Of a DNA stretch of 64,000 bases, positions 48,459 through 49,570 are shown piece after piece (position 1 is the first letter of the stretch; each line of letters begins with the position of its first letter). The notes beneath the pieces were generated by a model. It saw only the letters and a list, made by a program, of their open reading frames with translations, made no database searches and was not told the DNA's origin. The position numbers and the translations under genes are program-made. The DNA is from Thermovibrio ammonificans HB-1. GTDB taxonomy: Bacteria > Aquificota > Aquificia > Desulfurobacteriales > Desulfurobacteriaceae. The stretch is from assembly GCF_000185805.1 (NCBI RefSeq), contig NC_014926.1, positions 1,234,501-1,298,500 on the forward strand, read 5' to 3'.

Positions 48459-48773
48459 ATGTCTTTCCTGGTAGAGTTCGCCATGTTCCCCACAGACAAG
48501 GGAGAAAGTGTAAGCCCTTACGTGGCAAGGATAATAAAGATGATAGACGAAAGCGGAGTCCCCTACAAACTGACGCCTATGGGAACTGTGTTCGAAACCG
48601 AAACGATGGACGAGGCCCTTGAGATACTGAAAAAGGCCTACCAACAGCTGGAGCCCGACTGTAACAGGGTCTACTCGGTGGTTAAGTTCGACATACGAAA
48701 AGGCAAGAGCAACCGCCTTAAGCAGAAGATAGAGTCGGTAGAGAAGAAGCTCGGCAAGGAGGTAAGCAAGTAA
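48459..48773 (+). CDS. MTH1187/YkoF-type thiamine-binding protein
   Basis: 104 residues. MSFLVEFAMFPTDKGESVSPYVARIIKMID and MGTVFETETMDEALEILKKAY are typical of the MTH1187 (DUF77) family, a ferredoxin-like fold that can bind thiamine-type ligands in some members. AAGGAGGAAA precedes the ATG. Closely followed by rnpB on the same strand. Confidence 0.87.
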   Translation: MSFLVEFAMFPTDKGESVSPYVARIIKMIDESGVPYKLTPMGTVFETETMDEALEILKKAYQQLEPDCNRVYSVVKFDIRKGKSNRLKQKIESVEKKLGKEVSK

Positions 48774-48799: not shown

Positions 48800-49122
48800 G
48801 CGGAGCAGGACGAGGGGTCGCCGGGGTTTAAACCCCGGAGGAAAGTCCGGGCTCCACAGGGCAGGGAGCCGGCGTTGAGCCGGGCAGGGGCAACCCTGCG
48901 GAAGGGCCACAGAGAACAGACCGCCACCTACAAGGTGGTAAGGGTGAAACGGTGGTGTAAGAGACCACCGCTCCAACCCGCAAGGGAAGGAGGCACGGCA
49001 ACCCCCTCCCGGAGCAAGGCTAAATAGGCTGGCGCTTGAGGGTGGCCCGCCCGATGCCAGCGGGTAAGCCGCACAGATAAATGACCCCCTCAGAACAGAA
49101 CCCGGCTTACGGCCTGCTCCGC
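48800..49122 (+). ncRNA. rnpB: RNase P RNA (class A), lacking helix P18
   Basis: About 323 bases. P1 is formed by GCGGAGCAGG (48800-48809) and CCTGCTCCGC (49113-49122). P2/P4 regions: GAGGGGTC pairs with GACCCCCTC. Universally conserved GAGGAAAGTCCGGGCTCC and ACAGAACCCGGCTTA are both present, as are GGTAAGGGTGAAA and GGAGCAAGGCTAAATAGG. After P16/P17 (GCTGGC...GCCAGC) the sequence runs GGGTAAGCCGCACAGATAAATGAC, with none of the ~20-base hairpin that forms P18 in E. coli. It ends two bases before the 3' end of the convergent YjbQ-type gene. Ends are set by pairing and may be off by a few bases. Confidence 0.95.
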
Positions 49123-49123
49123 G

Positions 49124-49525
49124 TTACCCTTCAATAACCTTAACGAAGACCCTCCTGGTTCTCGGCCCGTCGAACTCACAAAAGTAGATTCCCTGCCAAG
49201 TTCCTAAAAGCAGCTTACCGTTCTGAACGATTACGGTCTGGTTGCACCCTACAAGGCTCGACTTTATATGGGCGGCAGAGTTCCCCTCTGCATGCTCGTA
49301 AAAGGGCTCCCGCCAAGGAACGAGTTTATCCAGCATAGAGATTATGTCCTTCCTTACAGTAGGGTCTGCGTTCTCGTTTATGGTAACGGCAGCGGTTGTA
49401 TGGGGAACGTAAACAACGCAGATGCCGTTTTTCACCCCCGACTGGAGAACCACAGACTCAACCTGACGGGTGATGTCTATAAACTGGTTTCTCCCGGTTG
49501 TTTTTAGGGTAATTTCGTATACCAT
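49124..49525 (-). CDS. YjbQ family protein (UPF0047)
   Basis: 133 residues from the ATG at 49525 (MVYEITLKTT), which has GGAGGG six bases upstream; the frame is open to 49564. Conserved VYVPHTTAAVTINEN (~51-65), YEHAEGNSAAHIKSSL (~85-100) and LGTWQGIYFCEFDGPR (~107-122) are family marks, with the His/Glu cluster that may bind metal. Some members have weak thiamine-phosphate synthase activity; the true role is unclear. Convergent to rnpB, almost touching. Confidence 0.9.
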   Translation of the reverse strand: MVYEITLKTTGRNQFIDITRQVESVVLQSGVKNGICVVYVPHTTAAVTINENADPTVRKDIISMLDKLVPWREPFYEHAEGNSAAHIKSSLVGCNQTVIVQNGKLLLGTWQGIYFCEFDGPRTRRVFVKVIEG

Positions 49526-49570
49526 TCTTCCCTCCGGCCGCTCGATAGTTAAAAGCCCCCTCACTTCTAA

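Follow-up and report, generated by a model that had tools for sequence, protein, structure and literature searches.

The RNase P RNA gene found in the window (the whole stretch of 64,000 nucleotides of Thermovibrio ammonificans HB-1 DNA analysed here) raises two questions: whether its product does without helix P18, and whether the absence of this helix can help to date the loss of the RNA enzyme in Aquifex. Both had been proposed in the first-pass annotation, made from the letters alone, and its guess that the organism belonged to the Desulfurobacteriaceae was right, T. ammonificans being a member of that family. The Rfam covariance model RF00010 matched positions 48802-49124 of the plus strand over its full length (model positions 1-367 of 367) with a score of 243 bits and an E-value of 1.5e-79, the gathering score being 100 bits, and RF00010 was the match kept within its clan. 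No other match was found in the 1.76-Mb genome, which consists of a chromosome of 1,682,965 bases and a plasmid of 76,561 bases, 1,759,526 in all (PMC3570795). The gene had thus been recognised in the right place, at 48800-49122, with coordinates about 2 bases off. The locus is laid out as follows:

48802..49124, plus strand: rnpB, the P18-less class A RNase P RNA gene (RF00010, full length)
48459..48773, plus strand: upstream open reading frame of 104 amino acids, outside the RNA (ORF list)
49124..49564, minus strand: converging downstream open reading frame of 146 amino acids, whose end abuts the RNA but which is separate from it (ORF list)

Neither a consensus sigma-70 promoter adjoining rnpB nor a terminator-like site at its 3' end was detected, which says little in a thermophile.

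We folded the RNA manually, following the established class A architecture, and left P10 and P11 to the Rfam alignment. P1, P2, P3, P4 with its bulged U, P5, the P6 pseudoknot, P7, P8, P9 and P12-P17 all form with standard pairs. The main elements, all on the plus strand, are:

48802..48809, plus strand: P1 5' strand, pairing with 49113-49120, 8 bp (hand fold)
48814..48819, plus strand: P2 5' strand, pairing with 49083-49088 (hand fold; compensatory changes in 5 of 6 pairs)
48821..48838, plus strand: P3 hairpin (hand fold and covariation)
48843..48851, plus strand: P4 5' strand AAGUCCGGG with the bulged U of the catalytic core, pairing with 49101-49108 (hand fold; invariant in 23 sequences)
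48859..48862, plus strand: P6 5' strand GGGC, pairing with GCCC in the P17 loop at 49045-49048 (hand fold)
48869..48883, plus strand: P8 hairpin (hand fold and covariation)
48884..48899, plus strand: P9 hairpin with a GCAA tetraloop, L9 (hand fold)
48971..48992, plus strand: P14 with a GCAA tetraloop, L14 (hand fold and covariation)
49018..49070, plus strand: P15-P16-P17 arm including GGGUAA (hand fold)
49071..49082, plus strand: linker GCACAGAUAAAU at the place of P18; its 12 bases separate the P15 3' strand from that of P2 (RF00010 and hand fold)

The pairing of P6 with the P17 loop is a hallmark of class A, and P6 together with P16-P17 distinguishes class A from class B. The GGGUAA in the P15-P16-P17 arm matches the CCA-binding loop (L15). 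The covariance score, the P4 core and the P6/P17 pairing together bear out the original assignment to class A.

The fold was compared with an alignment of 23 sequences from the same order as the window organism, in which 96.5% of the helix cells were paired. When the partners were slid by 1 to 3 columns, pairing fell to 36-57%. Both sides had changed in 36 of the 84 pairs (shuffle mean, 19.9), and the P4 core, AAGUCCGGG / CCCGGCUU with its bulged U, was invariant across all 23. Since the changes are compensatory and preserve pairing, rnpB is under structural selection. P1 was paired at only 63.6% in the covariation table; in many rows of the alignment its 3' strand is displaced by one base, and we put the low value down to this fault.

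Class A RNAs usually have P18, but the helix is not a condition of membership, and RNAs without it are recognised as belonging to the class. In the window RNA, the RF00010 alignment skips all 24 consensus positions of P18 and uses no bases for them, so that the covariance model, like the hand fold, puts no P18 helix there. The interval between GGGT in the P15-P16 internal loop and the AGAUAAAUG ahead of P2 measures 13 bases. In an annotated E. coli rnpB it measures 37 and accommodates P18; the window RNA therefore has no room for the hairpin, just as had been read from the sequence. The short-linker pattern occurs once in the window, with no occurrence expected in shuffles. The E. coli RNA shares all core helices and the P6 pseudoknot with the window RNA and differs from it in having P18.

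In what follows, f1 denotes the Desulfurobacteriaceae and f2 another family of the same order; from the published distribution we infer that f4 corresponds to the Hydrogenothermaceae and f3 to the Aquificaceae. That helices come and go in the neighbourhood, with a P19-like hairpin in two f2 genomes and a hairpin between P17 and P16 in some f4 RNAs, could suggest that P18 has been displaced or is unrecognised here and that, for example, a hairpin elsewhere does the same job. We regard this as very unlikely, because the 3' strands of P15 and P2 are separated by just 12 bases, Rfam puts nothing there, and the window RNA carries no extra hairpin.

The protein partner is encoded in the same genome. 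We found rnpA at G000:C2:428938-429258, directly after an open reading frame that reads as rpmH, where it had been expected, in the order rpmH-rnpA-yidD-yidC (rpmH, yidD and yidC were read from open reading frames). As listed, the rpmH and rnpA frames in L198:1869-2383 overlap by 16 bases, with the GTG start of rnpA at 2015 and the end of rpmH at 2030. The check for the protein-only enzyme HARP, also proposed with the first reading, gave none in the T. ammonificans genome by two models, including TIGR03875. The window RNA thus fits the P18-less class A type of the Aquificota, with a linker of 2-3 bases in place of P18, rnpA present and HARP absent. The related families f3 and f5, in which HARP has replaced RNA and RnpA, might suggest that this RNA is decaying on its way to loss, with a protein enzyme processing tRNA; given an invariant core, compensatory changes and a genome with rnpA and no HARP, this is hardly credible. 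We are therefore almost certain that the window encodes the housekeeping class A RNase P RNA, which matures the 5' ends of tRNAs together with RnpA and lacks P18. The RNA is presumably transcribed and active.

In E. coli the P18 loop docks on P8 and links the two domains, and its deletion lowers the activity of the RNA without protein several-hundred-fold or more (PMC5839562). L9 can dock on P1, and L14 is a GNRA partner of P8 (PMC4227106). In the window RNA both P9 and P14 have GCAA loops, which can make the L9-P1 and L14-P8 contacts, and L14 would be the remaining GNRA partner of P8 once L18 is gone. The L14-P8 and L9-P1 contacts, together with RnpA, may compensate for the lost L18-P8 contact.

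The absence of P18 in this species is already known and has been in print since 2014. Lechner et al. identified the RNase P RNA of T. ammonificans and described all RNase P RNAs of the Hydrogenothermaceae and Desulfurobacteriaceae as lacking P18 (PMC4227106); the reach of the trait into the Desulfurobacteriaceae, put forward as new in the first-pass annotation, had thus been published for this very species. We found no difference between the window RNA and the published one, in which P14 is weakened and the L14-P8 contact strengthened; the RNAs of T. ammonificans and Desulfurobacterium thermolithotrophum are both P18-less, with a short P12 and a weaker L9-P1 contact (PMC4227106). The proposed kinship with the RNAs of Persephonella and Sulfurihydrogenibium is correct. 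The thermostable P18-less RNAs of Persephonella marina and Sulfurihydrogenibium azorense (Marszalkowski et al. 2006, as cited in PMC4227106) are, like the window RNA, of class A and from the same phylum; unlike it, they belong to the Hydrogenothermaceae and, as far as described in PMC4227106, have a stronger L9-P1 contact. It is also established that the Aquificaceae lack rnpA and rnpB and have HARP instead (PMC10941002; PMC12153264).

We then considered 136 Aquificota genomes, calling HARP by TIGR03875 above its cut-off. RF00010 matched in 62 genomes, none of which had HARP above the cut-off, and HARP was found without detectable RNase P RNA in 69, so that no genome had both; rnpA was present in 63. 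P18 was absent from all 62 RNA-bearing genomes, in which the GGGT-to-AGAU interval measured 13 bases in 58 and 14 bases in the other 4. The f4 RNAs have a deviating P15 sequence. A HARP candidate in G079 scored 18.4 bits in a frame with stop codons and was rejected as chance.

Five genomes (G129, G086, G089, G056 and G107) had neither RNA nor HARP, and the first three of these carry rnpA. G129, G086, G056 and G107 are draft assemblies, 70-95% complete. For G089, which is 99% complete, an assembly gap is the likeliest explanation, because the whole 3.7-kb region around rnpB, 93% identical between two congeners, gave no match in it. In family f5 (G106-G112), HARP was seen in six genomes and not in G107, and neither the RNA nor RnpA was matched.

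A quick rpoB tree of 28 genomes, whose outgroups are long branches, so that its root is less certain than its clades, recovered the ten HARP genomes, which belong to f3 and f5, as a single clade with an SH-aLRT value of 100. Family f5 was sister to f3, the larger of the two. The clade as a whole was sister to the RNA-bearing f4, with f1 and f2, the order of the window organism, outside. Since the HARP genomes form a single clade, the RNA was probably lost once and late in the phylum, one loss on the branch to f3 and f5 explaining the pattern. It is likely that the common ancestor of the Aquificota already had no P18, and that a single loss of the RNA followed on the branch to the Aquificaceae and f5, after the split from f4. 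The survey widens the published picture of three families and eleven genomes without changing its kind. The gain is modest, a sharper view of how the enzyme was replaced: RNA with RnpA or HARP, never both above the cut-off, and a switch on one branch.

The short linker also occurs outside the phylum, in at least 119 stretches from named genomes (L063-L181), mostly of Bacteroidota and Chlorobiota. Other labels among the matches listed are Ignavibacteria, Calditrichota, Bipolaricaulota, Planctomycetota and Acidobacteriota, as well as Verrucomicrobiales, Fibrobacter and Thermotoga; several of the loci come from single metagenome bins, the naming of which may be mistaken (e.g. L108, 'Sphingomonadales'). 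RF00010 confirmed 17 of the 19 short-linker loci tested, at 163-276 bits, and gave no match for the other two, L111 and L128. Class A RNAs without P18 are thus common where the RNA has been retained, and because of this the absence of P18 should not be taken as a step towards loss. Nor can it date the loss in Aquifex, as had been hoped: P18 is absent from all the RNA-bearing Aquificota genomes surveyed, and therefore there is no variation to work with. The loss is placed by the distribution of RNA and HARP on the tree, not by P18.

Some further variation was seen among the RNAs of the other families. The f2 RNAs lack P18 and have an extra P19-like hairpin between P2 and the 3' strand of P4, the distance from AGA to ACAGAA being 35-39 bases (L006:1501-1848, L017:1501-1850) as against 19-21 in the family of the window organism. 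In some f4 RNAs (L025, L034, L036, L049, L050 and others) a short additional hairpin follows P17, before the 3' strand of P16; its loop is often of the GNRA type, as in L036 (AAGCC-GAAA-GGCUU), and non-GNRA in L041 and others.
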